Assembly: GCF_000189635.1 (NCBI RefSeq)
Contig: NW_002476345.1
Span: 5,211 to 69,210 of the forward strand
Direction: 5' to 3'
Source of the DNA: Tetrahymena thermophila SB210
Taxonomy: Eukaryota; Ciliophora; Oligohymenophorea; Hymenostomatida; Tetrahymenidae
Length of the DNA stretch: 64,000 nt
Shown piece by piece: positions 7,905 through 61,169 of the stretch; the first letter of the stretch is position 1, and every line of letters begins with the position of its first letter. A program made the position numbers and the translations under genes. Below the pieces are notes generated by a model. That model was not told the DNA's origin. It saw nothing but the letters and a program-made list of their open reading frames with translations, and ran no database searches.

Positions 7905-8745
7905 ATTGAAAAATTTAAGATTCTATCTTACACTAACAATTAAAATATTTCCATTTTAAAAATCTTCTAAATTAATATTTAACTAAATTTGTTTCAAGCT
8001 TATTTGCTTATCCTACTACTTTTAGCTAAGAAGATCCTTTAACAATAGATTTTTTGCTTTATAGTACGAATGCTATTCGATAGTGATAAGCTAATTTAAA
8101 AAATATCACTTACATATAGGTAAACTGATTATAAATCTTCTATTGTTGTTTATGGTTTACTTGATATTTTTTTTATGACGGAATCATATAAAAAAGAGGT
8201 GTACTAACTTATAATTTGTTGAACTACTATAATACTCAAATTGTATTAATTCTTAAATTTATCATTCAAATTACTGAATTACTAAATTGTAGAATTTGAA
8301 TTTTAAGCGAATACTTGTTAATCATTAGAAGAAGAAAAATAGTCATTTTTTTAAGACTTTTAGTAAATTATACCATTACCAACTGCTTCCAATACTTATG
8401 CATACGATTATAGGCAAAATTTATAGTCAGATGAGAATTATTTTTGACAGATTGACTAAAATGTGCTATTTATTAGGGAGTTAACCTTAATAAAAATTTA
8501 TAGTGCAAGTTTTAGAGAGATTTAAATCAATTTCTATTTCTGGTGAAATACATATATTAGAACAAGTATTATTATATTTTTTTAGATTTAAATTAAAATA
8601 GATTTAAGCATTATTTATATTTTACTTAATTGTTAGTAAAATAAAAAACCATTTATTAAGAAATACACTGATTTAGGCATTATACTTCCTAGTTAGAATT
8701 ATGTAAAAATAATTTTAAAAAAACTTTAAAAAACTTTTAGTTATA
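7905..8745 (-). pseudogene. Decayed fragment of the cysteine-rich surface-protein gene
   Basis: The stretch aligns collinearly with about 10280-11130 of the intact neighbour gene and its duplicate. Shared anchors include 'atatttaactaaattt' near 7975, the 'agaagatcc' block near 8028, the 'ttccaatacttatg' block near 8388 and the 'tttatattttacttaatt' block near 8610. It therefore represents the membrane-proximal ectodomain of the family on the minus strand. Many substitutions and indels have destroyed any continuous frame, and neither the signal peptide, the repeat array nor the membrane anchor is present. It is a relic of a third family copy, older than the 9.5-30 kb duplication. Confidence 0.7.
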
Positions 8746-9666
8746 AGTTTAAACTATAAATTCATCATTAGTAATATACTATTAGGAACATATTTTAGCT
8801 ATGCACTTGTTTTAATTTTAATAAAATAATTCTCCTTTTTCGAAACTATTAACATACATTGTGTTATTTTAATTGATTTTAATAATTTTCATTTAATTAA
8901 TAGCTAATTTTTTAGAATTTTAGGTAGGAAGTATAGAATATTAAATGATTTTGCTTTTAGAGTATATTTGCCATATTTAAAAAGATAATTTTTGAGAATA
9001 AATTTTATTTTATAATAAAAATTAACAAAATTATTTAATTTACTTTGAATATTTAAATTATTATCATTTTTTCAAATTAAAAATTTGTAATTATTAATAA
9101 AAACGATTTTATTTAATTTTTTTGTTACCAAAAAGGATATTTTAAATTTAATTTTAACAATTAGAATTATAAATTTGATTTAAAGCTATCTATTTTCTCT
9201 TAACAAATGAAATTTATATTTTAAAGTTATACTATTCAGAAAACTATGTTAAATAATAGAAGATGATTTATCTTGTATAAAATATTTGATTCTGATAAAA
9301 TAAGGTATTATTTAAATACATTTATTTTATTACTAAAATTCAATTAATTTTAATTTTGTTTAACTTAATGATTAACATAATTTCTTTTCTGGTTTTGTTT
9401 TTATTTACTATTATTTATTCACTAAAAATAATAATAAGTTAAAAAAAATATTAACTAAATTTCAGTTAAACAATTTTTTTAAATGTAAAAGATAAAAAAA
9501 CTAAATAATTCAATTTATTTCATTATTTTGGGTATATTTAAAAAGTAATTCATTTAAATTTGATCTATTTTAAAGTGTAAAAATTATTCAATAGTGAGAA
9601 ACAAATACATAAAAAATATAAATTTACTTTAATTTTAAAAAACTATATAGTATATATATAATAATA
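8746..9666. other. AT-rich intergenic region, start of duplicated unit
   Basis: No gene seen. From about 9470 onward the sequence matches that from about 21860 onward, marking the left edge of the tandem segmental duplication and the 3' flank of the surface-protein gene ending at 9667. Confidence 0.55.
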
Positions 9667-12600
9667 TCATTCAAATAAAATTTAATCTAAAATGATTGCT
9701 TCATCCTTTTTAACTTAATTTTGATTTTCAGTATCTCCTTTTTCTGCTTATTCAGTAATCAGGTTATTTGTTTATAAAGTTTTAGGTTAGTTGAGTTGGA
9801 TTAATTTTTTATAATTTTTTTTGTGCCTTATATAGCTTACAACACAAACACTTGTTAAACCTACAAAGGCAAAACAAGAAAATGCTATTCCAAATATTTG
9901 CACTCCTGATAATTCTTTAGTACTCTCATCTTCAGAATTACAATATTTTTAATCAACATGTAAGCACTACTCATCATAATAAATTGATGAGCTATACGAT
10001 ATTTGGCATGCAATCTATCCATTTTAAACTTAACCTTAGCTCCAAGTTAAGACCCCTTACTCGTTATAATTTTAGCATATAAGTTTATTTGGGTTTTAAT
10101 CTTACTTAATGGCATACATAATTTAGAATGATTAAGACTACTATAGAATTCTTTACTATGATTAAATGGATTTTACATTTAATAAGAACAGAGGTTACTT
10201 TTATGCACAACTATCCTATTAGCAATACATATTCGTGCTAACATAAGCAATTTATAAAACTTATAGTTATTATGATGAAGTTAAGTTTGTATCTTATTCA
10301 AGTAATGAGGTAGTATTTCCATTTTAAATATCTGATGAATTTAATATTTAACTAAATTTATATCCAGGCTAATTTGACTATCCTATAACTTTTAGTTAAG
10401 AAGATCCAGTAACAACAGATTACTTACCCTATGATGAACTAATATTACTCACTAAAGACTAATTTATTGTAAAAATATCATTTACAGCTTGCTAAATCTA
10501 CTATTTATCTTCTGTCTTTGTTTAAGATTTGCTTTATATGTTTGATATAATTAAATCATATGATTAAGAAGTATATTAATTAATTTATTCTTAAACTTAT
10601 TATAGTGCTTAAACTGTATTAATTCCAGAACTAATAACTTAAATCACGGAATTTTTAAGTTAAGTTAAACTTTCAGTAGTATTAGAAATTTTTACACATC
10701 CTTATTAACCATTAAATGATGAAAAGTATTCATTTGGTGAGCACTTTTAGCAATGATTTCCACTACCTATTACTTCCAATACTTATCCACATGATTCTAT
10801 GCATAATTTATTATCAGAAGAAATATAATTTTGACATGTTGATGAGCATGTGCTATTACTAGGGAATTAATATTAACCTTAAGAGCAATTTTGAGAACAT
10901 GTGTTAGAACCATTATCAATTTCAGGTGAAATGCAAGTATCAGTGCAAATATTGCTATTTGAGGCAGATATTTTTTTAAAGTTACAAAAAGTAGGATTTA
11001 CACATTATTTATATTTTACTTAATTATAAGTAAAATAATAAATCATTTATTGCTCACTGCATTAATTTAAACATTAAACTTCCTAATTAGATGCGTCTAC
11101 TTGTAAATAATTTGAGCAAACTTTACATTATTTTTAGCCATTAGATAAATCTACATATTCTCCTTTACCGCAGCTGCTAACACAAGCAGTTTTGTTAACA
11201 TTTTAATATTATTAAAGGGGACATGACAATAAGCATCGATTACCAGATAAACTTATAAATTCTGAATTATTACAACTGTTAACGCAAGCTGTTCCATTAG
11301 AAGAGACATATTAATTTTGATTGCACTAATTACAATAGGATGTTGAATTAACAAATTAATTATCATCACAATTAGAAACACATTGAGGTGTATTATTTTT
11401 TATATTAATGTACTAACTCTTGTTACAAGTTATGCAGAAGTTAGTTTAATTCAAATATTATCTATTATCTGAGCAAGTAAGAGTGCATTAAGTCATATTA
11501 TTTTAGTTAACAAATAATTTGTTTTTACAACTACTCAAAGGTTAGCAAGCTCGACCTGAAAAAGAAAGTACTTCTGTTTAATTATTGCAGAAATTAACAC
11601 ATTACTTTCCATCAGAAGAAACAAATTAAGTATTATTGCATTATGTACAATAATTTGTTGAATTCAAATATTGACCATCACTGCAACTAGATACACATTA
11701 TGTTTAATTATTATTATCTAAACCAAAGTATTATTAATCTTGATTGCAAGTCACGCAAAAATTGTTTGTCATATTAATAAATTAATTTTTACCGTTACAA
11801 TTAGAAATGCATTAGGTCATAGTATTATTTTAAACAAATAACTTGCTTTAGCAATCTGATTTATTTTAACATGCTCTACCAGATAGAGAAAGAATTTCTC
11901 CTTAATTACAAAAACTAACACAAGTTGTTTTGTTAGAAGAAAGATATTAAGTTGGATTACAAGATGTACAGTAATTATTAGTTATATTTGCATATTATGC
12001 ATCTCCACAGTTTGGAACACACTACAATTAATTTTTATCATCAAAACCTACAAATTAGTTAGATGTGCAATTTTAACAAAGACCTGTAGAATTCAAAAAC
12101 TAATTAAAACCATTACAATTAGAAACACACTATTGTACTCCATTATTTTATGTAATCTATTAAGTACAATTTTCTTTATATATGCAAGCATTTCCATTTA
12201 AATTAAGTATTTAACCACCTAAATCACAAGTTTATAAGCAAGATGTTTAATTATAAGAAGGAAAACCTTTTTGACATTTTACACAGTAGCTGGTGGAGTT
12301 ATAATATAAACCTTCATTGCATTTACTAACACAAGTTCCATTTTTCTTAGAATCATCATAATTTATGAAAGGTGTATCTCCACTACAAGTATAACATGTC
12401 TAATTATTTAGATCAACAAATTATCTATTTGAATTGCAATTAGAAACACATTGTGTTATGCTATTATTTTATGAAATAAGCTAAGTACAGTTTTCTTTAT
12501 AAATGCAAGCATTTCCATTTAAGTTAAGTATTTAACCACCCTTATCGCAATTATCTAAGCAAGAAGCTTAATCATAAGAAGGGAAACCTTTTAGACATTT

Positions 12601-15600
12601 TACACAGTAGCGGGTGAAGTCATAATATAAACCTTCACTACATCTACCAACACATTGAGTTGTGCTATTTGTTTGTGCAAAAAGCTATGTACAATTTTCT
12701 TTATAAATGCAAGCAGTTCCATTTAAGTTAAGTATTTAACCACCCTTATCACATGTTTCAAAGCAAGTTGATTAATCATAAGAAGGGAAACCATTTTGAC
12801 ATTAAAGGCAGTAGTTAGTAGAGTTATAATATAAACCTTCATTGCATTTACTAACACAAGTTCCATTTTTCTTAGAATCATCATAATTTATGAATGGTGT
12901 ATCTCCACTACAAGTATAGCAATAATTATTTAGATCAACAAATTATCTATTTGAATTGCAATTAGAAATACATTTTGTTGTGTCATTATTTTATGAAATA
13001 AGCTAAGTACAATTTTCTTTATAAATGCAAGCATTTCCATTTAAGTTAAGTATTTAACCACCCTTAACGCAAGTATCTAAGCAAGAAGATTAATCATAAG
13101 AAGGGAAACCTTTTTGACATTAAAGGCAGTAGCTGGTGGAGTTATAATATAAACCTTCATTGCATTTACTAACACAAGTTCCATTTTTCTTAGAATCATC
13201 ATAATTTATGAATGGTGTATCTGCACTACAAGTATAGCAATAATTATTTATATCAACAAATTATCTATTTGAATTGCAATTAGAAATACATTTTGTTGTG
13301 TTATTAGTTTGTGCAAAAAACTAAGTACAATTTTCTTTATAAATGCAAGCATTTCCATTTAAGTTAAGTATTTAACCACCCTTATCGCAAGTATCTAAGC
13401 AAGAAGATTAATCATAAGAAGGGAAACCTTTTTGACATTTTACACAGTAGCTGGTGTAGTTATAATATAAACCTTCATTGCATTTACTAACGCAAGTTCC
13501 ATTTTTCTTAGAATCATCATAATTTATGAAAGGTGTATCTCCACTACAAGTATAACATGTCTAATTATTTAGATCAACAAATTATCTATTTGAATTGCAA
13601 TTTGAAACACATTGTGTTGTGGCATTAGTTTGTGCAAAAAACTAAGTACAATTCTCTTTATAAATACAAGCAGTTCCATTTAAGTTAAGTATTTAATCAC
13701 CCTTATCGCATGTTTCAAAGCAAGTTGATTAATCATAAGAAGGGAAACCATTTTGACATTAAAGGCAGTAGTTAGTAGAGTTATAATATAAACCTTCATT
13801 GCATTTACTAACACAAGTTCCATTTTTCTTAGAATCATCATAATTTATGAATGGCGTATCTGCACTACAAGTATAGCAATAATTATTTATATCAACAAAT
13901 TATCTATTTGAATTACAATTAGAAATACATTTTGTTGTGTCATTAGTTTGTGCAAAAAACTAAGTACAATTTTCTTTATAAATGCAAGCATTTCCATTTA
14001 AGTTAAGTATTTAACCACCCTTATCGCAAGTATCTAAGCAAGAAGATTAATCATAAGAAGGGAAACCTTTTTGACATTTTACACAGTAGCTGGTGTAGTT
14101 ATAATATAAACCTTCATTGCATTTACTAACACAAGTTCCATTTTTCTTAGAATCATCATAATTTATGAAAGGTGTATCTCCACTACAAGTATAACATGTC
14201 TAATTATTTAGATCAACAAATTATCTATTTGAATTGCAATTAGAAATACATTTTGTTGTGCTATTATTTTATGAAATAAGCTAAGTACAATTTTCTTTAT
14301 AAATGCAAGCAGTTCCATTTAAGTTAAGTATTTAATCACCCTTATCACATGTTTCAAAGCAAGTTGATTAATCATAAGAAGGGAAACCTTTTTGACATTA
14401 AAGGCAGTAGTTAGTAGAGTTATAATATAAACCTTCATTGCATTTACTAACACAAGTTCCATTTTTCTTAGAATCATCATAATTTATGAAAGGTGTATCT
14501 CCACTACAAGTATAACATGTCTAATTATTTAGATCAACAAATTATCTATTTGAATTGCAATTAGAAATACATTGTGTTGTGTTATTATTTTATGAAATAA
14601 GCTAAGTACAATTTTCTTTATAAATGCAAGCAGTTCCATTTAAGTTAAGTATTTAACCACCCTGATCGCATGTGTCTAAGCAAGTTGATTAATCATAGGA
14701 AGGGAAACCTTTTTGACATTATACACAGTTGCTGGTGGAGTCATAATATAAACCTTCACTGCATCTATCAACACATTGTGTTGTGGTATTAGTTTGCGCA
14801 AAAAGCTAAGTACAATTTTCTTTATAAATGCAAGCAGTTCCATTTAAGTTAAGTATTTAACCACCCTTATCGCATGTTTCAAAGCAAGTTGATTAATCAT
14901 AAGAAGGGAAACCTTTTTGACATTAAAGGCAGTAGCTGGTAGAGTTATAATATAAACCTTCATTGCATTTACTAACACAAGTTCCATTTTTCTTAGAATC
15001 ATCATAATTTATGAATGGTGTATCTGCACTACAAGTATAGCATATCTAATTACTTAGATCAACAAATTATCTATTTGAATTGCAATTTGAAACACATTGT
15101 GTTGTGCCATTAGTTTGTGCAAAAAACTAAGTACAATTTTCTTTATAAATGCAAGCAGTTCCATTTAAGTTAAGTATTTAATCACCCTTCTCGCATGTGT
15201 CTAAGCAAGAAGCTTAATCATAAGAAGGAAAACCTTTTTGACATTATAGACAGTAGCTGGTGGAGTCATAATATAAACCTTCACTGCATCTATCAACACA
15301 TTGTGTTGTGGTATTAGTTTGCGCAAAAAGCTAAGTACAATTTTCTTTATAAATGCAAGCAGTTCCATTTAAGTTAAGTATTTAACCACCCTTATCGCAT
15401 ATTTCAAAGCAAGTTGATTAATCATAAGAAGGGAAACCATTTTGACATTAAAGGCAGTAGTTAGAAGAGTTATAATATAAACCTTGATTGCATTTACTAA
15501 CACAAGTTCCATTTTTCTTAGTATCATCATAATTTATGAACGGTGTATCTGCACTACAAGTATAGCATATCTAATTATTTAGATCAACAAATTATCTATT

Positions 15601-17247
15601 TGAATTGCAATTAGAAACACATTGTGTTGTGCCATTAGTTTGTGCAAAAAACTAAGTACAATTTTCTTTATAAATGCAAGCAGTTCCATTTAAGTTAAGT
15701 ATTTAACCACCCTTATCGCATGTTTCAAAGCAAGTTGATTAATCATAAGAAGGGAAACCTTTTTGACATTAAAGGCAGTAGCTGGTAGAGTTATAATATA
15801 AACCTTCATTGCATTTACTAACACAAGTTCCATTTTTCTTAGAATCATCATAATTTATGAATGGTGTATCTCCACTACAAGTATAACATGTCTAATTATT
15901 TAGATCAACAAATTATCTATTTGAATTGCAATTAGAAATACATTGTGTTGTGTTATTATTTTATGAAATAAGCTAAGTACAATTTTCTTTATAAATGCAA
16001 GCAGTTCCATTTAAGTTAAGTATTTAACCACCCTGATCGCATGTGTCTAAGCAAGAAGCTTAATCATAAGAAGGAAAACCTTTTTGACATTATACACAGT
16101 TGCTGGTGGAGTCATAATATAAACCTTCACTGCATCTATCAACACATTGTGTTGTGGCATTAGTTTGCGCAAAAAGCAAAGTACAATTTTCTTTATAAAT
16201 GCAAGCAGTTCCATTTAAGTTAAGTATTTAACCACCCTTATCGCATGTTTCAAAGCAAGTTGATTAATCATAAGAAGGGAAACCATTTTGACATTAAAGG
16301 CAGTAGTTAGTAGAGTTATAATATAAACCTTCATTGCATTTACTAACACATTGTGTTGTGGCATTAGTTTGCGCAAAAAGCTAAGTACAATTTTCTTTAT
16401 AAATGCAAGCAGTTCCATTTAAGTTAAGTATTTAACCACCCTGATCGCATGTGTCTAAGCAAGTTGATTAATCATAAGAAGGGAAACCTTTTTGACATTA
16501 AAGGCAGTAGCTGGTAGAGTTATAATATAAACCTTCATTGCATTTACTAACACATTGTGTTGTGGCATTAGTTTGCGCAAAAAGCTAAGTACAATTTTCT
16601 TTATAAATGCAAGCAGTTCCATTTAAGTTAAGTATTTAACCACCCTTATCGCATGTTTCAAAGCAAGTTGATTAATCATAAGAAGGGAAACCTTTTTGAC
16701 ATTAAAGGCAGTAGCTGGTAGAGTTATAATATAAACCTTCATTGCATTTACTAACACAAGTTCCATTTTTCTTAGAATCATCATAATTTATGAATGGTGT
16801 ATCTGCACTACAAGTATAGCATATCTAATTACTTAGATCAACAAATTATCTATTTGAATTGCAATTTGAAACACATTGTGTTGTGCCATTAGTTTGTGCA
16901 AAAAACTAAGTACAATTTTCTTTATAAATGCAAGCAGTTCCATTTAAGTTAAGTATTTAATCACCCTTCTCGCATGTGTCTAAGCAAGAAGCTTAATCAT
17001 AAGAAGGAAAACCTTTTTGACATTATAGACAGTAGCTGGTGGAGTTATAATATAAACCTTCGTTACATTTACCAACACAAGTACCATTTTTGTTAGAATC
17101 ATCATAATTTATGAAAGGCGTATCTTCACTACAAGTATAACATATATTGTATGTATCTACAAACTATTTATCTAAGTCACAATTCTAAGCAAAACATAGG
17201 CTTATAATGATGCAAAGGCAAGATAGAAGTATTAATTTTTTTTACAT
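9667..17247 (-). CDS. Large cysteine-rich furin/VSP-like repeat surface protein
   Basis: Start and stop lie exactly 2527 codons apart, and the ends and repeats I translated are open, so I infer one exon of about 2526 aa. The N-terminus is a signal peptide (MQKKLILLSCLCIIISLCFA) starting at 17247. An ectodomain follows, built of about 18 modules with regularly spaced CxxC-type cysteines, recalling furin-like/GF-receptor cysteine-rich repeats and variant surface proteins. Next comes a cysteine-poorer Q/S-rich membrane-proximal domain (codons near 9960-10800), with a C...YNEQG.LTWS...C segment that weakly resembles a GPS motif. It ends in a single membrane span (about 9830-9900) and a charged tail of about 55 aa. 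It is predicted to be a type I surface protein; ligand and role are unknown. The neighbouring paralogue at 22052-25712 has far fewer modules. Confidence 0.88.
12160..17160 (-). repeat. Tandem cysteine-module array inside the large surface-protein gene
   Basis: The anchor encoding a LYYNSTSYC-like motif recurs about 18 times. Spacing alternates between about 320 bp and about 205 bp. The long unit has two parts. One carries a KCQKGFPSYDQ...C core through GGQILNLNGNACIYKENC. The other carries CNSNRQFVDLNNQTC, then CSGDTPFINYDD and KKNGTC. The short unit lacks the second part, a loss of about 115 bp that is in phase. Adjacent copies are often more than 95% identical, which indicates recent unequal exchange or gene conversion. 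All spacings I checked keep the reading frame. Confidence 0.88.
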
Positions 17248-20200
17248 ATTTTTTTAATTTTTACCTTATAGTTAAATTATTTTTAATTAATTAATTTTTA
17301 TAAATTGAAGTTTTTAATGACTATTTGAAGTAAATATTTAGTTTTAAATTTTTAATTGTAACGAATAATATGAATATAGATTCCATTACTTATAAAATAT
17401 CTAAATACTGACTTTGAAATTCTAATTTAAAAATATAATCAAATTTTTTTAATTAAAAATAATATCTTACCCGTAACTCTAAATTTGCATATTTAAATTT
17501 AAAATATTGTTTTTAATTGTTAATTATTTGTTAAATATGTAATTCTTTTATTAAAATGGTTTTAAGAATATAATCAAATCAAGCTTCTTTTCAAAAAATA
17601 AACAAAATATATTTTTTAAAAGATATAGAAACTAATATTTTTTTTTATCAATTTTATATTAGTTTTAATGGTTAAATTCTTCAACTTAGTAGTCAATAAT
17701 ACATTTAGTTCACATCTACTGATCAATATTATAAATATTTAGTCTTTAAATATAAATATATAAATAATATAGTATCACACTGTTTTTTCTAAGTTATTTA
17801 AGAAATATGTTTTAAATTAATTTGTTTGGTTTTAAAACAGTGAAAAACTATTACTATTATTCTCATTATTTTTAATAATTTGTGGTTAAAGATTAATTAT
17901 TAGCAAAGTTTTTTAAATATATAACGACTAGGGAAATAATGATTTAAATAAAACTATCATCATTAACTGATATGTAAACAACTATATTTCATAATCAACC
18001 TTATCTATTTTAATTGATAAATTTCAATTTTAATTTTATTTTTCGTTATTTTTAAAATACATCTTCTTATTTTCTTTGATTATGCTTTGACTTATATTTT
18101 TTTTTAAATATATAATTTTAAAGAGGAAATGTAAAATTTATATTTATTTCTTTGCTTTCTTTATAAAATAATTTAAAAATTTTTAATTATCTGAAAAAAA
18201 TATTTTTAAAAACAAAAAAATGATAGAAAAAAAAATGTATCTTAGAGTTAAAAATTTTCAAATTGAGAAGAGTATAATACCTCAAATGAAAAGCAAACAG
18301 TTAATAATACGTATTAATAGAAATATATTTAGTAAATTTTTGATTATTAATTATTTAAATTTAGAGACTTTCTTATAATAATTTAATAGTATTCATATCA
18401 TATTCAGATTAGGCTTTTAAATTGCTTATTGTAATCATTTTTAAATGTTTTATATTTGCCAAAAATAATTTTCATGAGATTTTATCTTTTTAAAAGCATA
18501 GATATTAAATTAATTTCCTCAATAATATGAACTTAAAAATATATTTATAATTTATTATTCTTCAAATTTTAAAGGAAAAAATAAGGTGAAAATTTAATTA
18601 ACTAAATAAGTTATTAATTTTTTTCTTAAATAACTATTAAATATTCTCTTATAAATTATGAATATATTTATAATACTTTTTTAAGATAAAGAAGAAATTT
18701 TTAAAAAATTCAATTCATCTATAATAAAAAATTAAATTTATAACTATGCTTTCTTTAAAATAATATTAATATAAAAAAATGAAAGTAAAAAATGTATCTT
18801 AGAGTTAAAATTTTTCAAATTTTGAAGAGTATAATAACTTAAATCAAAATCAAACAGACAATAATACGTATTTATCCAAAAATATATCTGAATTCTTTAT
18901 TATTTATTTAAAAATTTAGAGACTTTCTTATTATAATTTAATAGTATCAATCCATATCTTATTCAGATTAGGCATTTATATATCTTTTTGTAATTTAAAT
19001 GTTTTATATTCCTCAAAAATAATTTTTATAAGATTTGTCTTATTAAAAGCATAAATATTAAATTTCTGTAAAAATATCAATTTAAAATTATATTTATTTA
19101 TCATTACTAATTCTTCAAATATAAAAGAAAAAAAAAATTAACATGAGCAATAAAAACTGATGCATTTAGATATTTATTTATTTATTACATTACAAAATTG
19201 TAATCTAAACAACTGATTATAAAAAGCTGTTTTTTCAAGCTTTTACAATAATTAATAAAATTTATTTTAGTTTTTTTATAGACTTTTTGAAAAAAAAATA
19301 ATAGTTCTATTTTAGAAATTTTAATGCTAACTGATTTTATAGATAAAACATTATAATTTTTTAAAAACTATTATATACTTTAGTTTTTATAACATAATCT
19401 ATTAAAAACGAATTATAAGATTAACCTTTGACTTATGTAATTCTTTATGCTTTTTTATTAATTTGTTATTTCTCTTTAAATTGATAAAAAAATGAAATCA
19501 TGAATTATATATGACAAATACTATAATTATTACAATAATTACAAATACTAAAATAAATCCTGAAATAAATAAGATGAAAAGTCTAATTCAAGCTTTGAAT
19601 TAGATATGATATTTAGATTACAGATCCTAAATTTATTTGAGATATCTCTCAAATATTTTTGTAAATATTTATATTTTAGATAGGATAAATAAGTATTCAA
19701 ATAAAATGAACAGACTAAAATATTTTTAAAAATATTCCTTATTAGTAGTCAATTAAATGATATTTGCTAGATTGATTTGATTTGGTTGGATGTAATTTGC
19801 CATAGTTTTTATTTTTCAAAAGATTGATTCTAAATACTATTTTTATTAGGAGATGGGTGACTCAACTTATTTAATTACAAGTAAGTGGGATATTTTATTA
19901 AGTAAATTTTATTGACTTTGATTACAATTTAATACTTAGATAGCTAATTAGAATTTTTTAATTAAATTATAATGGAATAATTTCATATCTTTTAAAAAAT
20001 TTATTTCACCTAAAATGCTTTAGCTAAATAATTAATCACTACTTATGTAATATAAAGTGAGTGCTATTATAAAGAAACTCATTTTGTAAATATTTTATTT
20101 GATTTTATTTAAAAAAGCATATTTTCGACTTAAAAATTATAAATAATATTATATTTATTTCAAATTTTGAAAGCAATATATAATAATAAAAACTAAATAA

Positions 20201-22051
20201 ATATGAAATAATAATAATACAACTTTTTTCTAATAAATTTTCCTTTCTAGTTTATTTAATAATTCGAAAAACATTAATCCTTGAAATTAACAATATATCA
20301 AGTATTTTGAACTTCCTATATATTTATTTTTAATGTATATCTAATTTATAATATTTAATAAGTGGCATTAATAGGAATTTAGCTCTAAAGCATAATAACA
20401 AGATTAACAAGTAGAAAAAATATGACATTTTAAAAAAATTATAAAATACATAAAAAAGATTTCAATATCTCTATGTTTCTATTAGTATTCTTTTGATTCT
20501 TTTTACGATAAAAGTAAACATCGGTTGATAAATATTTACATTATTTAAACCAATTAACAATACATAATTTACCTTGAATATAAGTTTCTAAAATTTAAAT
20601 GCTCTTTTTATGTAGCAATACTGTTTTATTTATACTTAATATAATTTGTTAATTTTTAAATCTGTAAGGGAATTTTTTGGAAAATAATACGAGAATATAA
20701 TTTAAGATATATTATTAATCAATTTTGTAAATTATTACTGGTAAGTATATCTGTAATCTAATTTGTTTTTTTGAGAAAATACACTTTTTAAAAATATTAT
20801 TTTTTATTTTTAGATTTGTTTAATTCTAATATAATTTGTTAATGATTTTCATTAAATTATATAAAATTTAAGATAGATACATAAGAATTTAATTATCTTA
20901 ACTATGTGATTATTTTTCATATAATTATTGGATATATATCTTTAATAAATAATATCTTTTCATTTTAAAATGTGAGAAAATTATTTATGACCACATTTGA
21001 TAGTATTTAATTAATCCCAACCTTAAGATTTTAAATTATAATTTTTATATTTTATATTAAATTTTATTCCTTTTTGATTTTATAAAATAGTAACTTTTGT
21101 AACTAAATAGATAAAATTAGTAAGATATTTTTTAAATATTATTATGATTTGTTTATCTTATTTTAGATGTTTTTAAAATAGCTTAAATGAATATTAAAAA
21201 ACAAAAAACCATTTTATATTTCGATAATTTTTCAAGTGCAAAGCTCATTTTGAGTTTAATAATTGCCAAGAAATATAAAACCTTTTGTTTTAACTACTAT
21301 AAAAAAATAAACTTTTTATTTTCTATTTAATTTATAAGAGAATAAATTTTGCATTAATATCTGAAAAAAAAAATATTTGCAAACATTTTCATATAAGGAA
21401 TCTATCAGTTGTATCTTTTCTTAATTTTTGTTAGGCTATGGTTGAATTTATATATTAGGAGGGAAGTATTGATTGAAGCTTTTAGGAATTAAGATTAGAA
21501 GTTATTGCTTAGAGTTAGATTAAAATGTATGGTAAATTAATCAAAAGTTGAAATCTTTTTTAAATATATAATTTCTTGATTTTAGTTTTGGGATTTATTT
21601 AAATTTAAATAACGAATACCTATTAGCAAAATTTAATTAACTATAATCTGTTTTTAGATTAAATTTACAAATAATTAAGATGATGAACAAATCCATGGCA
21701 AAATATATTTATTTTTTTATTATAATAATTTATATATTTATGCTTTTTTATAATTTTATAATTTAAAATAATATTAATATTTTTTAAAAAACAAAAAATA
21801 TCAATTTTATTTTTTAAATATATTTGTATCCAAAAAAATTTGAAAAAACTAATTCAAAGAAATTTTTTAAGTGAATAAGATAAAAAACTAAATAATTAAA
21901 TTTATTTCATTATTTTAAGCATAGATAAAATGTAATTCATTTAAATTTGATCTATTTTAAAGTGTAAAAATTATTCAATAGTGAGAAACAAAAATATAAA
22001 AATATAAATTTACTTTAATTTAAAAAAATATTATATAATATATATAAAATA
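17248..22051. other. Noncoding flank of duplicated unit 1
   Basis: No gene was found between the signal-peptide exon of the large surface-protein gene and the stop codon of its duplicate. The whole stretch to about 21665 has a counterpart at 25713-30030. It contains a two-copy noncoding repeat (18090-19100) and a segment near 20490-20960 missing from unit 2. The part nearest 17248 must hold the gene's promoter, but no defined element is recognisable. Confidence 0.6.
18090..19100. repeat. Noncoding tandem repeat, about 557-bp spacing, 2 copies
   Basis: Two copies each contain, in order, a 'tatgcttt.ctttataaaa' string, a 'cttagagttaaaa' string (18241 and 18798), an 'aataatacgtatt' string, 'tttagagactttctta' and 'attcagattagg'. 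The copies differ by many substitutions. Related copies occur three times in unit 2 (26440-28000), so the repeat existed before the segmental duplication and has since changed copy number. No coding potential is apparent. Confidence 0.8.
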
Positions 22052-25000
22052 TCATTCAAGCGCAATTTAATCTAAAATGATTGCTTCATCCTTTTTAGCT
22101 TAATTTTGATTTTCTGTATCTATTTTTTCTCCTTATTCAGTAATTAGGTTATTTGCTTATAAAGCTTAAGGTTAGTTGAGTTGAATAAATTTTTTACAAT
22201 TTTTTTTGCGCCTTATATAGCTTATAACACAAACACTTGTTATACCTACAAAGGCAATACAAGAAAATGTTATTCCAAATATTTGCACTCCTGATAATCC
22301 TTTAGTACTCTCATCTTCAGAATCACAATATTTTTAATCAACATGTAAACACTACTCATCATAATATATTGATGAACTATACGATATTTGGCATGCAATC
22401 TATCCATTTTAAACTTAACCTTAGCTCCAAGTTAAGACCCCTTACTCGTTATAATTTTAGCATATAAGTTTATTTGGGTTTTAATCTTACTTAATAGCAT
22501 ACATAATTTAGAATGATTAAGACTACTATAGAATTCTTTACTATGATTAAACGGATTTTACATTTAATAAGAACAGAGGTTACTTTTATGCACAACTATA
22601 CTATTAGCAATACATATTCGTGCTAACATAAGCAATTTATAAAACTTATGGTTATTATGATGAAGTTAAATTTGTATCTTATTCAAGTAATGAGGTAGTA
22701 TTTCCATTTTAAATATCTGATGAATTTAATATTTAACTAAATTTGTATCCAGGCTAATTTGTCTATCCTATAACTTTTAGTTAAGAAGATCCAGTAACAA
22801 CGGACTACTTACCCTATGATGTACTAATTTTGCTCACTAAAGACTAATTTATTGTAAAAATGTCATTTACAGCTTGCTAAATCTACTATTTATCTTCTGT
22901 CGTTGTTTAAGATTTACTTTATATGTTTGATAAAATTAAATCATATGATTAAGAAGTATATTAATTAATTTATTCTTAAACTTTTTATAGTGCTTAAACT
23001 GTATTAATTCCAGTGCTGATAACTTAAATCACAGAATTTTTAAGTTAAGTTAAACTTTCAGTAGTATTAGAAATTTTTACACATCCTTATTAACTTTTTA
23101 GTGAAAAGTATTCATCTGGTTAGCACTTTGAGCAACGATTTTCACTACCTACTACTTCCAATACTTATCCACATGATTCTATGCATAATTTATTATCAGA
23201 AGAAATATAATTTTGACATGTTGATGAGCATGTGCTATTACTAGGGAATTAATATTAACCTTAAGAGCAATTTAGAGAACATGTGCTAGAACCATTGTCT
23301 ATTTCAGGTGAAATGCAAGTATCAGTGCAAATATTGCTATTTGAGGCAGATATTTTTTTAGATTTACAAAAAGTAGGATTTACACATTATTTATATTTTA
23401 CTTAATTATAAGTAAAATAATAAATCAATTATTGCTGACTGCATTAATTTAAACATTAAACTTCCTAATTAGATGTGTCTACTTGTAAATAGTTTGAGCA
23501 AACTTTACATTATTTTTAGCCATTAGATTAATCTACATATTCTCCTATACCGCAGCTACTAACACAAGCAGTTTTGTTTACATTTTAATATTATTAAAGG
23601 GGACATGATAATAAGCATCTATTACCAGATAAACTTATAAATTCTGAATTATTGCAACTGTTAACACAAACTGTTCCATTAGAAGAGACATATTAATTTT
23701 GATTGCACTAATTGCAATAGGATGTTGAGTTAACAAATTAATTATCATCACAATTAGAAACACATTGAAGTATATTATTTTTTACATTAATGTACTAACT
23801 GTTGTTACATGTTATGCAGAAGTTAGTTTAATTCAAATATTATCTATTACCTGAACAAGTAGCAGTGCATTGAGTCATATTATTTTAGTTTACAAATAAT
23901 TTGTTCATCTATTAAGTACAATTTTCTTTATAAATGCAAGCATTTCCATTTAAGTTAAGTATTTAACCACCCTAATCACATGTGCCTAAGCAAGATGTTT
24001 AATTATAAGAAGGGAAACCATTCTGACATTATAAGCATAATTTATTAGAGCTATAATATAAACCTTCATTACATTTACCAACACATTGTATTGTGCCATT
24101 AGTTTGTGCAATAAACTAAGTACAATTTTCTTTATAAATGCAAGCGTTTCCATTTAAGTTAAGTATTTACTAACCCTAATCGCATGTACCATAGCAAGAT
24201 GTTTAATTGTAAGAAGGGAAACCGTTTTGACATTTTACACAGTAGTTAGTGGAGTTATAATATAAACCTTCATTGCATTTACTAACACATTGTGTTGTAC
24301 CATTATTTTATTAAATAAGCTAAGTACAATTTTCTTTATAAATGCAAGCATTTCCACTTAAGTTAAGTATTTAACCACCCTATTCACATGTGTCTAAGCA
24401 AGATGTTTAATCGTAAAAAGGAAAACCTTTTTGACATTTTACACAGAAGCTGGTGGAGTTATAATATAAACCTTCATTGCATTTGCCAACACAAGTTCCA
24501 TTTTTGTTAGTATCATCATAATTTATGAACGTAGTATTCCCACTACAAGTATAGCATATCTTATTAGTTAGATCAACAAATTATCTATTTGAATTGCAAT
24601 TAGAAACACACTATGTAGTACCATTATTTTATGAAATAAGCTAAGTACAATTTTCTTTATAAATGCAAGCGTTTCCATTTAAATTAAGTATTTAACCACC
24701 CTAATCGCATGTGCCTAAACATGATGTTTAATTATAAGAAGGGTAACCGTTTTGACATTTTATACAGTATGTTGGTGGAGTTTTAATATAAACCTTCATT
24801 GCATTTACTAACACATTGTGTTATACCATTATTTTATTAAATAAGCTAAGTACAATTTTCTTTATAAATGCAAGCATTTCCACTTAAGTTAAGTATTTAA
24901 CCACCCTAATCACATGTGCCTAAACATGATGTTTAATTATAAGAAGGGTAACCATTCTGGCATTATAAGCAGTAGCTGGTGGAGTTATAATATAAACCTT

Positions 25001-25712
25001 CATTGCATTTACCAACACATTGTGCTGTGCTATTAGTTTGTGCAATAAACTAAGTACAATTTTCTTTATAAATGCAAGCATCTCCACTTAAGTTAAGTAT
25101 TTAACCACCCTAATCACATGTGCCTAAGCAAGATGTTTAATTATAAGAAGGGAAACCATTCTGACATTTTACACAGTAGCTGGTGGAGTTATAATACAAA
25201 CCTTCATTGCATTTGCCAACACAAGTTCCATTTTTATTAGAATCATCATAATTTATGAACGTAGTATTCCCACTGCAAGTATAGCATATCTTATTAGTTA
25301 GATCAACAAATTATCTATTTGAATTGCAATTAGAAACGCATTGTGATGTACCATTATTTTAGGAAATAAGCTAAGTACAATTTTCTTTATAAATACAAGC
25401 AGTCCCATTTAAGTTAAGTATTTAACCACCCTAATCGCATGTGCCTAAGCAAGATGTTTAATTGTAAGAAGGGAAACCATTTTGACATTTTACACAGTAG
25501 CTGGTGGAGTTATAATACAAACCTTCATTGCATTTGCCAACACAAGTTCCATTTTTGATAGAATCATCATAATTTATGAACGGTGTATTTCCACTACAAG
25601 TATGGCATATATTGTTTGAATCAACAAACTATTTATCTTAGTTGCAATTATCAGTAAGGCATAAACTTAAATAGATGCAAAAGCAAGATAGTAGTAATAT
25701 TTTTTTTTACAT
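22052..25712 (-). pseudogene. Shorter cysteine-rich surface-protein paralogue with one frame break
   Basis: This is a duplicate of the 9667-17247 gene: a signal peptide beginning at 25712 (MQKKILLLSCFCIYLSLCL), about 7 cysteine modules, the same membrane-proximal domain, a membrane span and a tail ending at the TGA at 22052-22054. The start-to-stop distance is 3661 nt, one more than a multiple of three. Comparison with sibling modules shows a one-base insertion near 24768, in the codons of the LYYNSTSYC motif. Reading through it meets TGA at 24573-24575, giving a truncated product of about 380 aa without a membrane anchor. Both halves are otherwise open and well conserved. It is therefore either a very recent pseudogene, a secreted short form, or an assembly error. 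Confidence 0.8.
23895..25640 (-). repeat. Cysteine-module array of the second surface-protein copy
   Basis: The LYYN-type anchor occurs about seven times (near 24040, 24240, 24445, 24770, 24970, 25185 and 25495). It shows the same mixture of about 205-bp and about 320-bp steps as the larger paralogue. Modules here are more diverged from one another than in the 12-17 kb array, suggesting that the larger array expanded more recently. Confidence 0.82.
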
Positions 25713-28700
25713 ATTCTTTAATTTTTACTTTTTAGTTTAATTATTTTTAATTAATTAATTTATATAAATTTAAGTTTTTAATGTCTATTTAAAGTAAATA
25801 TTATGTTTTAAATTTTATATTTTAGTGAATAATATGTATATGGATTCCCTTACTCCTAACATATCTAAATACTAACTTTGAAATTCTAATTTATAAAACA
25901 AATTTTTTAATTAAATATATAGTCTTACCCGTAGCTTTATATTTGTAAATTTAAATTTAGAATATTGTTTTTAATTTATAAACAAGGTAATTATTTACAT
26001 TTATATAAAAATTGTTTTAAAAATATAATCAATTAAAGTTTCATTTAAAAAAATAAATAATTTATGTTTTCTTAAAAGATATAGAAACTAATATCTTTTT
26101 CTTACCTATTGTTTTGAGTTATTTTACAGTGTACAGAATTTATATTTAACTGATCAATATCATAAATATGTAGTCTTTAAATATAATGTAGGATCATTAA
26201 TTAATTTGTTTGGTTTTAAAACAGTGAAAAAATAATTACTATTATTTTCATTATTTTTAATTATTTGTGGTTAAATATTAATCCTTAGCAAAGTTTTTAA
26301 ATATATAACCACTAGGGATAGGATGATTTAAATAAGACTATCATCATAAATGATATGTAAACAACTATATTTCATAATCAACTCTATCTATTTTAATTTT
26401 ATTTTTTGTATTTTTAAAATACATCTTCTTATTTTTTTTGATTAGGCTTTAACTTAATATTTTTTGATTTATACAATTTTAAAGAGAAAATATAAAACTT
26501 ATGTTTATTTCTATGCTTTCTTTATAAAACAATTTTAATCTGATAAAAATATTTTTTAATAAACAAACAAATGAAAGAATGAAATTTATCCTAGAGTTAA
26601 CAATTTTTAACTGATAAGAGTATAATACCTCAAACGAAAATCAAATAGATAATTATACGTATTAATAAAGAAAAATTTAGTAACTTTTTGATTATTTATT
26701 ATTTAAATTTAGAGACTTTCTAATAATTACTTATTAATATCCATATCTTATAGAGATTAGGATAATATATATCTTTTTGTAATTTTTTTTTAAATGTTTT
26801 ATATTTCCCAAAAATAATTTTCATGAGATTTTATCTTTTTAAAATCATATATATTAAAACAATACAAAAAAATCAACTTAAAAATATATTTATAATAAAA
26901 TGATTCTTCAAATATAAAAGGAAAAGATAAGATGAAATTTAATTTGATTAACTAAATAAGTAATTAATTTTAAACTAAAATAGCTATTAAATATTCTTTT
27001 ATAAACCATGAATAAATTCTTGATACTTTAAGATTTAGAAGCAATTTTAAAAAATTCAATTTATCTAAAATAAAAAATATAAATTTATTTTTATGCTTTT
27101 TTTATAAAACAATTTTAAAGGAAATAAATTTACCTTAGAGTTAAAATTTCTCAAATTGAGAAGAGTATAATACTTCAAACGAAAATTAAACAGAAAATAA
27201 TACGTATTGATAAAAAAATATTTTGTAACTTTTTGATTATTTATTTATTTAAATTTAGAGACTTTCTTATAATTATTTAATAATATCCATATATTATTCA
27301 GATTAGGCTTTTATATATCTTTTTGTAATCTTTTTTAAATATTTTATATTTCTCTAAAATAATTTTCATGAGATTTATCAAAATTATATAAAATACATTA
27401 TCAACTTATAAATGTATTTATAATAAAATTATTCATCCATCAAGTAAGTTTAAAAGGAAAAGAGGTGAAAATTAATTTGATTAATGAAATAAGTAAATAA
27501 TTTTAAATTTAAATAACTAGTAAATATTCTCTTATTAATCATGAATAAATACTTGATACTTTAAGAAATAGAAGCAATTTATAAAAAATTCAATCCATCA
27601 AAATCTAAAATATTTGTTTATTTCTATGCTTTTTTTAAAAAATAATTTTAATATAAAAAAATGAAAGAAAAAAATTTATCTTAGAGTTAAAATTTCTCAA
27701 ACTTTCAAGAGAATAATAACTTAAATCAAAATTTAACAGATAATAATACGTATTAATCCAAAAATATATCTTAACTTTTTTATTATTTATTATATACATT
27801 TAGAGACTTTCTTATAATTATTTAATAATATCCATATATTATTCAGATTAGGCTTTTATTTATTATTTTGTAATATTTTTAAATATTTTATATTTCTCTA
27901 AAATAATTTTCATAAGATTTTGTCTTATCAAAAGCATAAATATTAAATATCTGCAATAATATCAACTTAAGATTATATTTATTTATCATAAATTATTCTT
28001 CAAATATGAAAGGAAAAAAGAAATTAGTATGAGCAATAAAAACTGACACATTTTAGATATTAATTTATTAATTACATTATAAAATTGTAATCTAACAACT
28101 GATTATAAAAAACTGTATTTTGAATCTTTTTATAATAATTAATAAAATTTGTTTTAGTTTTTTTATAGACTTTTTGAAATAAAAATAGTATTTCTATTTT
28201 ATAAATTTCAAAGCAAACTGATTTTATAGATAAAACATTATAATGTTTAAATGTCTTTTATACAAGTTAGTTTTTATAACATAATCTATTTTAAAAGCAT
28301 TGTAAGCTTAATATTTGACTTATGTAATTTTCTATGCTCTTTTATTAATTTGCTATTTTTTTTTTATTAAAATTGATGAAAAAGTGAAATCATAAATTAG
28401 ATATAATAAATACTTGTGATTATTACAATTACTCCAAATATTTAAATAAATCCTGAAATAAGTAAGATGAAAAGACTAATTCAAGCTTGTTTAAAATAGA
28501 TCTGATATTTATTTTGCAGTTAATTAATTTATTTGAGATATCTCTCAAATATTATTCTAAATATTTATATTATAGATAGGATAAATAGGTATTCAAATAA
28601 AATGGACTGGCTAAAATATTTTTAAAAATAATCCATTATTAGTAGACAATTAAATAATATTTGCTAGATTGATTTGATTTTATTGAATGTGATTAGCGAT

Positions 28701-30676
28701 AGTTTTTATTTTTTAAAATATTCTATATACTATTTTTATTTGGAGATGGGTGACTCAACTTATCTAATTATATGTAAGTGGGATGTCTAGTTAAGTAAAT
28801 TTAATTTACTTTGATTACAGTTTAATATTTAGCTAACTAATTAAATGGTAAAAGAATAATTTCCTATTTTTTTAAATATCTGTTTCACCTAAAATGTTTT
28901 AGATAAAAAATTTATCACTTTAATATAAAGTGAGCTCTATTATATTGAAACTCATTTTTTAATTATTTTATTGCATTTTATTTAATAAAGCATATTTTTG
29001 ACTTAAAAATTAAAAATAATATAATTTGTATTTCGCGTTTTGAAAGTAATATTAATAAAAACTTAAATATATATGAAATAATAATTCAATTTTTTCTAAA
29101 AAATGTTTCTTTCTAATTTATTTAATAATTGGAAAAACATTAATCCTTGAATTAATAATATAATAAGTATTTTGAATTTCCTATACATTTATTTTTTATG
29201 TAAATCTAATTTATTATATTTGATAAAGAACATAATTATGGATTTAGCTCTAAAATATGACATTTTAAAAAAATTATAATAAACATAAGAAAGATCTGTA
29301 TATCTTCAATAATATCTTGTCATTTTTAAATTTGATAAAATCATTTATGACCACTTTTGATAGTATTTAATTAATCCCACCCCTAAAATTTTAAATAATA
29401 ATTTTTATATTTTATATTAAATTGTAGACTTTTTTGATTTTATAAAATAGTAACTTTTGTAATTAATTAAATAGGTAAAATTAGTTAAATATTTTTTAAA
29501 TATTAGAATTACTTGCTTACCTTATTTTAGATGTTTTTAAAATAGCTTAAATGAATATTTAAAAAATAAACAAACAAAAAACCATTTTATATTTAGATCA
29601 TTTTTCAAGTGAAAAGCTCATTTTGAGTTTCATATTTGTCAAAAAATATATATCCTTTTATTTTGACGAAACTACAAAATTTACTTAATATTTTCTATTT
29701 TATAAAGAAGAGAGTAATCTTTGCTTAAATATGGGGGGAAAAATATTTGTAAACATTTTCACATAAGGAGTCTATCAGTTTTATCTTATATTTCCTAGGC
29801 TATGGTTGAATTTGTATTTTAAGAGAGACATATTGATAGAAGCTTTTTGGAAGTAAGAATAGAAGCTTATAGCTTAGAGTTTAATTTAAAATGTATGGTA
29901 AATTAATCAAAAGTTGAAATCTTTTTTAAATAAATAATTTCTTGGTTTTAGTTTTGTGATTTAGTTAAATTTAAATTTGTAAACTTTATTAGCTAAAATC
30001 TAATGAATTATAATAATCTGTTTTTAGATTACCCATTAAAAAGATTAATTAATTAAAATATTGGATATTAGTTTTTATATAAAAGATTTTTTATTTTTGA
30101 GAATATTTAAATTTCAATAATTTAACTAATATTTTATCAATGCTACACTATTTAACTTTATGTATAGGCAATTTTGTGGCAGAGAAAAACAATTAAAATA
30201 ATTATATTTATTTTAATCTATTCTTCCTTCTTTTTGAAGTTAAAATACTAATCAAACTTTAAAAATTATATAAATATTATTTAGTATCTAAGTCAGATAA
30301 AGAAAAAAATACCAATTTTTGGTATTATATATTTTACTTCAATATCAAAATCAAAAATAAGTTTTGATTATTTTTTATCAAAAATTGTATAAAGTAGTTA
30401 AGCAATAAAATTAATTAATTAGTAAGTTATTATTATTTAGCTATTCTTATATATTTATTTCTTGAAAAAACTATGAATTTTTATAAAAGCTAAAAAAGAT
30501 TTTTATAAGAATTTGAAGATCTTATCTATTGTATAAAATGAATAGATAATCTTAATATTTAATTTATTTTTATATTTTATTGAAAAAATTTTAAAAAGAA
30601 TATCTGAATAATCAAATGTTTAAAAAAAACATATTTATGTAGAATATAAATATATATTGTTTATTTAAATATTTGT
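25713..30676. other. Noncoding flank of duplicated unit 2 and spacer
   Basis: No gene found. The stretch to about 30030 mirrors 17248-21665 of unit 1 and includes a three-copy noncoding repeat. From about 30030 to 30676 the sequence is unique AT-rich spacer before the stop of the next minus-strand gene. Confidence 0.6.
26440..28000. repeat. Noncoding tandem repeat, about 545-bp spacing, 3 copies
   Basis: The 'agagttaa' anchor is at about 26592, 27137 and 27682. Each copy is followed by 'aatacgtatt' or 'tatacgtatt', 'tttagagactttct' and 'agattagg' strings. These are counterparts of the two copies at 18090-19100 in unit 1. The extra copy in unit 2 shows that this noncoding repeat has expanded or contracted independently of the gene. 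Confidence 0.8.
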
Positions 30677-35916: not shown

Positions 35917-37344
35917 ATGGAGCAAGTAAAAAATCACTAGGAACATAGTCTATTAGGTAGGAAGCCTTTAGAATACTATCAAAATAAAATCATGAAAGAA
36001 AAAAAAGGTGATATTTGGTGTAAAGATTAAAGAATCAACTATCCTGTTGGCGACGAGCTTCAATTTGATGATTTTTTTAAGATTACCAACAAAAATTATA
36101 GGATTTTTAAGTTCACTGTCGGTAAGAGAGTAGAAAACAGTTATATATGTGGATTGCAGTTCCACTACCAAAATATCCAAAACCCTGATGAAGTAGTATA
36201 AGGTTTTGCTTTTGGACCAAATGACTTATTCACTAATAATAAGTATTAAACAAAATCTTTTACCCTTTAAGATGATGAATTCATTGTAGAAATGAAAGGT
36301 AGAAAAGGTATGATTATAGACTGCTTTGGTGTTGTGACAAATAAAGGAAATGAGTATAGCTTTGGAGGTACCGGTGGAGGAGAATACTCTTAAAAGGCTC
36401 CTAAAGGTTACCACTTTACTTGCATGGGAGGCTACTTTTCACCAGGCTGGGATTCTATTAGTAGCTTTACCATGGAAGTTAGAGAGTTGCCATTTGATGA
36501 TGGAGAGAATTAGCGTAGACTTCATTCCTATTCTCTTAAATCTTACAAGCCAGCTTTTAGAAAATTAGTTGATTTTCTTACTACATCTGAGGTAACAAAA
36601 TTGTTTAGACTAAATAAAGATTTTGCCAGGTTCCGTCATGACGATTATGTCTTAACTAAAATTGGCTGTAGATGCATCTACTCTGGAGTCCCAAAATCAA
36701 TTAAATACATCAAAAAAATGATTAAATATTGTCCATAAGATGAAGTAGCAAATGTATATGAAAAGATTATGAACTATTTCAATTTAATTTAAAATTTTGT
36801 CTCTAATCCTGATGGCAGAAGTGAATATGAAGGATTCTAAAAGGTATAGAATGGAGGAGATGGAATTACAATTTAAAAATCAGAAAAAGACTGTAATTTT
36901 ATAACAAGTTATGGATGGTGCACACTTAAATGGTCTAAGAGCCTTAAAGAAATCTTCTCAGACAAATCAAAATATAACTTAGAACTTCTTATAGGAAAAA
37001 TTCAATCAGGAAATTATGCAATTGTAGCAGGAGCATAAATTTGTGAAACAGGATTTGGAGGAGAAGCAAGTTTAAAGATAGAAATTTTAGGAGAAGATGA
37101 AAATGTTCTTTTCTAATTTAAAAGAGATATTAAAGATTTGACAAGAGAATATAAATTTTACAATCTAAAATACATCCACTCTTGGCCAGATAAAGTACCT
37201 CACAAGATTAACTTCTACATTTCTGGTAAAGATACATGCTTCTGGGCTGGGCACTATGGCGCTAAATTTAAATCAATCACTGTCAAAATTATTCCTATAG
37301 AGGATGAATAAGAAAAAGTTCTTTTTGAAAAATATATTAATTGA
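35917..37344 (+). CDS. Jacalin-like lectin domain fused to an FBA-like domain
   Basis: A single exon encodes 475 aa from ATG at 35917 to TGA at 37342-37344. Residues about 40-190 resemble a jacalin-type beta-prism: a glycine-rich strand with IDCFGVVTNKGNEYSFGGTG, then GGYFSPGWDSISSFTMEV, matching the family pattern of a GGxGG-like loop and a late GxxG..D.I strand. A linker of about 100 aa follows. Residues about 330-470 (NFITSYGWCTLKWSKSLKE through FYISGKDTCFWAGHYGAKF) resemble F-box-associated/galactose-binding-like beta sandwiches, although no F-box is present. There is no signal peptide, so it is probably cytosolic. The fold assignment rests on motif shape only; the domain pairing is inference. 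Confidence 0.8.
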
Positions 37345-43942: not shown

Positions 43943-45157
43943 TCAAATTTTACTAAATAATTCATATGGAATATTTAACTAAATAGAAGGATCTTCTTTT
44001 AATTAAATTACACCTTCAAATTTTTCTTTTATTACACTCTTTAATAATCCTATTTTTTTGCAATACTAACCTGGCTTTAGAATCATTACTTCTCCTTCTA
44101 ATTTAGGAATTACTGTTTCAAGGAATTATTAATCCATTTAAATTACTACTTCAGGTTTTTTGATTAATTATATTTTTCCCTAAAATGGATCTTCTGAGTT
44201 TACTTCTTTAACAATAGCTTTTTCATTATAATACGAACCATTTTCAAGTTCTTTATCTTTAATTTTAACAGTAATGCCTTCCTATAACCAAGGAATTTCA
44301 TCAAAAGCATCTTCCCCTTCTTATTATATTTAATCTCCATCTTATTAATTAATTTGTGTATTATTTTCTATTTTGTTTTCAGTAGGCACTGCTGCTTACT
44401 CATTTTCTTGATTTTATTAATTATTTTGTTATTGCACTGAAAATGAGATCAACTCTTCATCTTTATTTTCTTCTTCTTGTTCATCTTCATCTTCTTGTTC
44501 ATCTTTTTTTAGATTAAAAGATATTCCAAACTCAAATTATCCACCTTCTAAATCTAATTCATCCATTTACTCATTTTTTGCTTCAATATTCTTATTCATT
44601 GTTTCTTCAAGCTTTTTGACATTTTGCAATTGACGCTCTAATTCCATTTGTTACATTTTTTCAGTTTTTTTTTCTAATCTCGCTCTTTTTTCTTCTTCTC
44701 TTTATTATTTAATAGCTTCTAATCCCTTATCTACATATGTGATAAATAAACCTCTATCGGTTTGATCTGCTGTTACTTTTCCAGTCTCATGGAGATACAT
44801 CACAAATCCAGACAAAGTTGTCCATTTAGTACTATTCATATGAACATGCGTTTTGTCACCAATGTACTCCTTGTAAACTGTATTAGCTAAAACTCTTTTC
44901 TAATTAAATCTTTTTTTTAGCAAATCCATGAAGTTGTTTTCAAATTCTTTACTATAAGTAGACAAAAATTCACTAGGATTTTCAGCAAATTATCTCATAT
45001 TATATAAATGTGTTTCGCTTTTTAAATGGCAATTAAAACCATTTTAATCCCTACACTGCTTTTTGCACATTTAACAATAAAATTTTAATTTCTAAAGACC
45101 TTTTAATTTCATTCTATTCGATATATCTTTAGGTGTTCCTGCTTCTGCTTTACCCAT
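43943..45157 (-). CDS. KIN17: KIN17-like DNA/RNA-binding protein
   Basis: One intron-free frame of 404 aa runs from ATG at 45157 to TGA at 43943-43945. The N-terminus begins MGKAEAGTPKDISNRMKLKG, the hallmark KIN17 start. A C2H2 zinc finger follows (FYCQMCKKQC...NCHLKSETH), then the winged-helix region (ENPSEFLSTYSKEFENNF, KRVLANTVYKEYIGDKTHVH, WTTLSGFVMYLHETGK, GLFITYVDKG). A charged coiled/acidic linker comes next. The C-terminal KOW/SH3-like tandem contains PWLQEGITVKIKD and IQLIKKPEVVIQMDQ. KIN17 is a nuclear protein linked to DNA replication, UV response and mRNA processing. Length and domain order agree with the family. Confidence 0.95.
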
Positions 45158-60890: not shown

Positions 60891-61169
60891 TATTATTTAT
60901 TTAATAAGATTTTCTTAAAAATCTTACTTCTAATTAATTGTAAAATTATATCTAAAATATATCAAAACATTATTGATGGCTATTTATATACCAACTTTAA
61001 AACAAAATGCACATTAAACATTTGTTATGTTTATAAACAAAAAATTATTTACATTGAGATTTTATAAAATATATTATTATTTATTTAACATATTTAGTTA
61101 GTTAGTTAGTTATTTACTTTTTTAGGAAAAAAATTATATTAAATGTCTTCATATATATTTGTTTATTCA

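Follow-up and report, generated by a model that had tools for sequence, protein, structure and literature searches.

How did two neighbouring genes with highly similar 3′ ends come to carry about 18 cysteine modules in one case and about 7 in the other? The question is raised by a 64,000-nucleotide stretch of the Tetrahymena thermophila SB210 genome (assembly GCF_000189635.1, contig NW_002476345.1, positions 5,211 to 69,210; the whole stretch is called the window here and coordinates count from its first base), in which the two genes, A and B, lie in two direct units. Overall, our analysis suggests that A and B probably belong to a small family of tandemly arranged ciliate genes for cysteine-repeat membrane proteins, shaped by birth-and-death and concerted evolution. 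The two direct segments, in which gene and flanks recur, go back to a tandem duplication, and a third, more diverged copy has decayed. Within each gene, modules have been multiplied, deleted and mixed. Array length would have shifted through unequal exchange among modules in the germline nucleus, and the 3′ tract common to A and B would have spread either by gene conversion or through an unequal exchange in which one 3′ end was replaced.

The mean guanine plus cytosine (GC) content was 22% over 32 segments and spanned 15.6–32.4% per 2 kb. Translation with table 11 gave no open reading frame (ORF) of at least 200 amino acids; the ciliate code (table 6, code 6) gave long ORFs, including one of 2607 amino acids. 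Such low GC and the use of code 6 are usual in Tetrahymena-like ciliate genomes, and the window fits a genome of this kind.

Two direct units and their module arrays

The first-pass annotation had described two direct units of about 12.2 and 8.2 kb with a common gene and common flanks. The self-alignment of the region, carried out as self-BLAST, bore this out with three direct blocks: 9468–11523 and 21856–23905 (94.5% identity), 17815–20389 and 26199–29254 (82–83%, in two overlapping pieces), and 20948–21661 and 29308–30031 (83.8%). Each unit carries one minus-strand code 6 gene with AT-rich sequence upstream. The main features are the following:

9468–21661, minus strand: duplication unit 1, gene A with about 4.4 kb of upstream flank (self-BLAST)
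21856–30031, minus strand: duplication unit 2, gene B with about 4.3 kb of upstream flank (self-BLAST)
9667–17247, minus strand: gene A, 2526 amino acids, uninterrupted code 6 ORF with 257 cysteines and 112 N-glycosylation sequons
12118–17181, minus strand: gene A module array, 18 T modules (68 amino acids, 8 cysteines) and 12 H half-modules (38–39 amino acids, 4 cysteines)
11524–12117, minus strand: degenerate cysteine modules of gene A, a stretch not in B, where the junction is in frame
22052–25712, minus strand: gene B, two reading-frame pieces flanking one frame shift
23906–25646, minus strand: gene B module array, 7 T modules and 3 H half-modules
7946–8697, minus strand: degenerate third copy covering part of the 3′ region; identity to A is about 73% across 740 compared sites, some gaps disrupt the frame and cysteines have been lost

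The arrays repeat with periods of 204 bp and 318–321 bp. Counting the 68-amino-acid T blocks in the sequence as assembled gave 18 in A and 7 in B, matching the module numbers proposed earlier. Five of the B T modules are complete, one is frame-shifted and one is fused to the 3′ region; B is without the degenerate modules of A, and its last T module continues in frame into the 3′ region.

Module divergence and a tree were obtained from the 18 A modules and five of the seven B T modules, the H half-modules being counted but left out of the tree. Mean synonymous divergence (dS) was 0.18 for T-module pairs from A, 0.24 for pairs from B and 0.27 for pairs drawn from both genes, and some pairs within A were much closer (A12/A14 differed by 0.5%, A02/A03 by 1.5% and A01/A08 by 2.0%; one pair differed at 1 of 204 bases). 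In the tree, 17 of the 18 A modules fell on one side, and the five B modules fell on the other together with A18, the module at the 3′ edge of the A array (support 90/94); label shuffles clustered equally well in 1 of 500 and 0 of 500 cases. The four-gamete test failed for 233 of the 496 pairs of informative sites (32 sites) among the A modules, and pairs of nearby sites showed less incompatibility (0.33 vs 0.47 overall) than in any of 2000 permutations, a mosaicism that we read as the mark of recombination or short-tract conversion. The arrays appear to have changed after the duplication, because most modules group with others of their own gene, their sequences are mosaic and some are nearly identical; such copying and swapping of blocks is to be expected in gene families of this type. 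Recombination as a diversifying process, put forward earlier in the form of conversion, is supported by the arrays. Two points weigh against so clean a separation by gene: the split is short of the 95 mark of the tree tool, and only 60% of 200 bootstrap trees kept each gene to a side of its own. The cysteines stood out from the remaining positions of the T module, being kept in all 144 cells in A and all 40 in the five B modules, while other columns varied (33 of 60 in A, 22 of 60 in B) and the cysteine columns themselves varied silently (4 of 8 and 6 of 8, respectively).

The two pieces of gene B (25712 to about 24771, 314 amino acids; 24784 to 22052, 910 amino acids) are separated by a single frame shift near 24.77–24.78 kb, which may be an error in the sequence or a mutation that has recently made B a pseudogene, and which may mean that B yields no full protein. 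An alternative explanation of the present locus is that it is decaying, with B a pseudogene like the relic at 7946–8697 and only A working. The frame shift and the adjoining relic, which shows that one copy has decayed at this site, speak for it. However, both B frames are long and open apart from the shift, which could be a sequencing error, the five complete modules have lost no cysteine, and the ratio of nonsynonymous to synonymous divergence (dN/dS) among B modules was 0.36. We regard a decayed B as possible but somewhat doubtful; it concerns the present state of B and is compatible with the recombination history proposed above.

In self-BLAST, the relic itself aligned at about 72% with part of the 3′ region of A and of B. 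Over the 740 gap-free sites of a three-way alignment, 33 differences separated A from B, compared to 199 between A and the relic and 207 between B and the relic. It is best read as a decayed member of the A/B array, because it has frame-breaking gaps and has lost cysteines.

Divergence along the two copies

The highly similar 3′ end lies at the following position:

9520–11523, minus strand: gene A 3′ tract with high similarity to B, which extends past the stop codon into the 3′ untranslated region (UTR); the lower limit is approximate

It had been noted earlier that the 3′ coding regions are nearly identical while the noncoding flanks have diverged, and either conversion or selection had been offered as the cause. 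The numbers behind this observation were right. In the 3′ coding region, dS was 0.093 and dN 0.039 (618 aligned codons), and the protein parts encoded there were 91% identical over 417 aligned columns; in the 5′ flanks, 382 of 2787 aligned sites differed (13.7%), with indels, in three segments that omit 18229–19135 and 20390–20947. The ORF at 20298–21392 within the intergenic sequence had no Pfam match at 0.01 and was handled as noncoding. The contrast, however, proved not to be one of coding against noncoding sequence. Among the 561 codons of the 3′ region that encode the same residue in both copies, 32 differed silently, compared to 11 of 43 in the 60 N-terminal codons (Fisher p = 7e-5) and 11 of 54 in the first T module; for the two 5′ segments together (22 of 97 codons), p was 9e-7. 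The proportion of differing silent sites (pS) at the 5′ coding end was 0.32 and 0.30, against 0.137 in the flanks. Divergence between the copies thus followed position, and the boundary is a positional one: in the 3′ tract the similarity extends to silent sites, and the 5′ coding end is silently diverged at least as much as the flanks.

Conversion or exchange between the copies is favoured, though not proven, for the 3′ tract, because silent sites are low there too. The similar tract also seemed to cross the stop codon into the 3′ UTR, with 9 mismatches in 123 sites from 9541 (p = 0.04 vs flank, only indicative as the boundary was picked after the profile had been seen). Several observations temper this reading. 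Support from the 3′ UTR hinges on the boundary (14 of 143 mismatches from 9521), and mismatch reaches 18% in the segment 9641–9690. The similarity of the 3′ region is uneven, with a dS of 0.19 in its first 100 codons and 0.03–0.10 in the others, and codon constraint could depress silent change there. The N-terminal comparison is based on few codons, and the tests of silent differences assume independent sites.

A rival explanation of the tract is that purifying selection alone has preserved the likeness of the 3′ coding regions, with no conversion or exchange involved. The 3′ dN, lower than the dS, indicates some constraint, and the 91% identity of the two 3′ proteins also speaks for it. It seems improbable in view of the low number of silent changes in the 3′ region compared to the 5′ end; the comparison of 3′ silent sites with the flanks (34 of about 390 vs 382 of 2787, p = 0.005) points the same way less strongly. 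Conversion or exchange is accordingly favoured over selection alone for the 3′ tract. Pairwise dN/dS over whole stretches was 0.24–0.52, and across seven segments of the 3′ region it ranged from about 0.18 to 0.96, the maximum falling on the last 18 codons with few sites; these pairwise values do not show positive selection.

That the two units are alleles, or a single locus assembled twice, is very improbable: the 204 and 318–321 bp tandem repeats are hard to assemble, yet a flank divergence of 13.7% with indels seems excessive for alleles, unit 1 has an extra stretch (about 20471–20947), and the modules are mostly gene-specific. The locus is a compact case in which several time scales are legible, namely a decayed copy, a duplication with about 14% flank divergence, and module pairs that differ by as little as 0.5%. 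The fixed cysteines amid variable columns, together with the edge module A18, which groups apart from the rest of its array, make the locus a usable test case for the diversification of ciliate surface-type proteins.

The upstream flanks have features of their own. The extra stretch in the flank of unit 1, about 480 bases long, is without counterpart in unit 2, and no element was recognised in it by eye. Noncoding repeats of about 380–800 bases, 78–84% alike, occur within and between the upstream flanks (18195–19134 and 26545–28019), apparently in more copies in unit 2.

Predicted protein and known cysteine-repeat families

Outside the array, gene A has the following parts:

17182–17247, minus strand: signal-peptide-like hydrophobic N-terminus (hydropathy scan)
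9913–10695, minus strand: juxtamembrane region without modules, about 260 amino acids, no family assignment
9838–9912, minus strand: single hydrophobic helix, transmembrane candidate (hydropathy scan)
9670–9837, minus strand: tail after the helix, about 55 amino acids

The membrane anchor claimed in the first-pass annotation was recovered as a hydrophobic anchor candidate near the C-terminus, and the same scan found the C-terminal helix and the tail of about 55 residues in the 910-amino-acid piece of B. Signal peptide and glycosylphosphatidylinositol (GPI) signal were judged by hydropathy scan and not by dedicated predictors. In both genes, the anchor looks transmembrane rather than GPI, because a single hydrophobic helix is followed by the tail. 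The product would then be a type I membrane protein whose disulfide-bonded array projects as a long glycosylated rod or coat, with its length set by module number. Such a protein may mediate contacts between the cell and its surroundings, either as a coat protein or as a recognition receptor, a role that we propose tentatively.

With a signal-like N-terminus (gene A) and periodic cysteines in repeats, the genes answer the broad description of ciliate cysteine-repeat surface-type proteins, and they are best placed as further members of these proteins in tandem arrays and not as a new kind of system. Pfam matched Furin-like (PF00757) on gene A (E value 1.6e-10; 41.5 bits, above the curated cut-off of 26.8). 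Several results weigh against this placement or limit it: no single stretch of A passes the Furin-like threshold alone, the N-terminal part of B reached 19.8 bits, below the cut-off, and its C-terminal part had no Furin-like match at 0.01. The structure models were of low confidence (AlphaFold, predicted local distance difference test scores of 47 and 30; 30 for the juxtamembrane model), and surface location, glycosylation and disulfides are predictions. A search of the PDB returned nothing for gene A, nothing for the modules and no relative of the juxtamembrane region; the 3′ region gave three weak matches (E values 0.11–1.8). A literature search found no paper on this gene pair, which is weak evidence as most subscription journals lie outside its coverage.

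Other profile matches were dismissed as products of chance or of sequence composition. KH_GLD-3, KA1 and Bflower on the arrays were under their curated cut-offs except for KA1 on the N-terminal part of B, which scored 24.7 vs 23 bits, yet spans just 18 residues of a cysteine module. Glyco_transf_25, Gp3-like and Tissue_fac on the 3′ region and two NCBIfam matches were likewise below curated cut-offs.

A further possibility, which we consider very unlikely, is that the proteins are adhesion-type receptors of adjustable length, in which an extensible disulfide-rod array sits on a juxtamembrane domain with a cytoplasmic tail, a plan comparable to that of the GAIN region. If this were true, recombination would adjust how far the receptors reach and what they recognise, with the cysteines remaining fixed. 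The likeness of the juxtamembrane region to the GAIN region of adhesion receptors is one that we assume, unsupported by any profile search: no GAIN or GPS model was listed at E values up to 10, in searches where the HMMER filters drop most matches above about 0.1. The layout of helices followed by strands was drawn in an AlphaFold model too poor to trust.

Like A and B, the Ser proteins and immobilization antigens (i-antigens) of Tetrahymena and Ichthyophthirius combine cysteine repeats of 55–100 amino acids with tandem gene arrays (PMC4136848, PMC3341644), and the Ichthyophthirius arrays include pseudogenes (PMC3341644). That A and B are themselves GPI-anchored antigens of the Ser family is nevertheless highly improbable. 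The cysteine periodicity and tandem arrangement are common to both, and the T module (68 amino acids, 8 cysteines) falls within the Ser block definition of 6, 8 or 10 cysteines in 55–100 amino acids (PMC4136848). However, the T and H block taken together (106–107 amino acids, 12 cysteines) lies outside those ranges. The Ser proteins are GPI-anchored, with a signal that ends hydrophobic at the C-terminus (PMC4136848), whereas A and B have a helix and tail, about 55 residues follow the last hydrophobic stretch of A, and by hydropathy A is without the C-terminal GPI signal. Ichthyophthirius i-antigens have 5 to 6 repeats, with a group of 12 at 303–340 amino acids (PMC3341644), compared to 2526 amino acids for gene A.

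Also among the nearest described groups are the Paramecium 'group 7' proteins, which have cysteine repeats and a transmembrane domain like A and B and whose expression, localisation and function are said to be unknown (PMC9788069); they belong to another genus and were likened by description, not by sequence. The T. thermophila mating-type proteins MTA and MTB are, like A and B, large, with transmembrane helices and furin-like repeats (PMC3608545). They are encoded by a head-to-head pair, whereas A and B have the same orientation, and the furin-like segment of MTA and MTB spans about 80 amino acids, with no long module array described in the available part of that paper (PMC3608545). Cysteine-rich GFR genes are among the seven top domain classes of species-specific Tetrahymena genes, which are often duplicated in tandem and have raised Ka/Ks (category I median 0.25; PMC6564038); the whole-stretch dN/dS values of A and B given above can be set beside this median. 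Repeat shuffling was worked out in the same paper (PMC6564038) for leucine-rich repeat (LRR) genes with 90-bp exons, whereas the modules of gene A lie in a single uninterrupted ORF.

Neighbouring sequence

An Rfam search gave no match at the gathering threshold, and ARAGORN, run with the bacterial code, gave no tRNA. The ORFs of 43943–62699 belong to ordinary families (KIN17, phosphorylase superfamily, FMN oxidoreductase, DEAD helicase, Bax1-I and ABC1). A direct repeat of about 205 bases, 75% alike, was found by self-BLAST at 39099–39658. The ORF at 35917–37344 matched an F-box-associated region (8.7e-10) and a Jacalin-like lectin domain (9.6e-6). Hydrophobic stretches were present at the start of the ORF at 42261–42995 and of that at 41023–41568, which carries an H-type lectin domain (Pfam, 7.1e-14).

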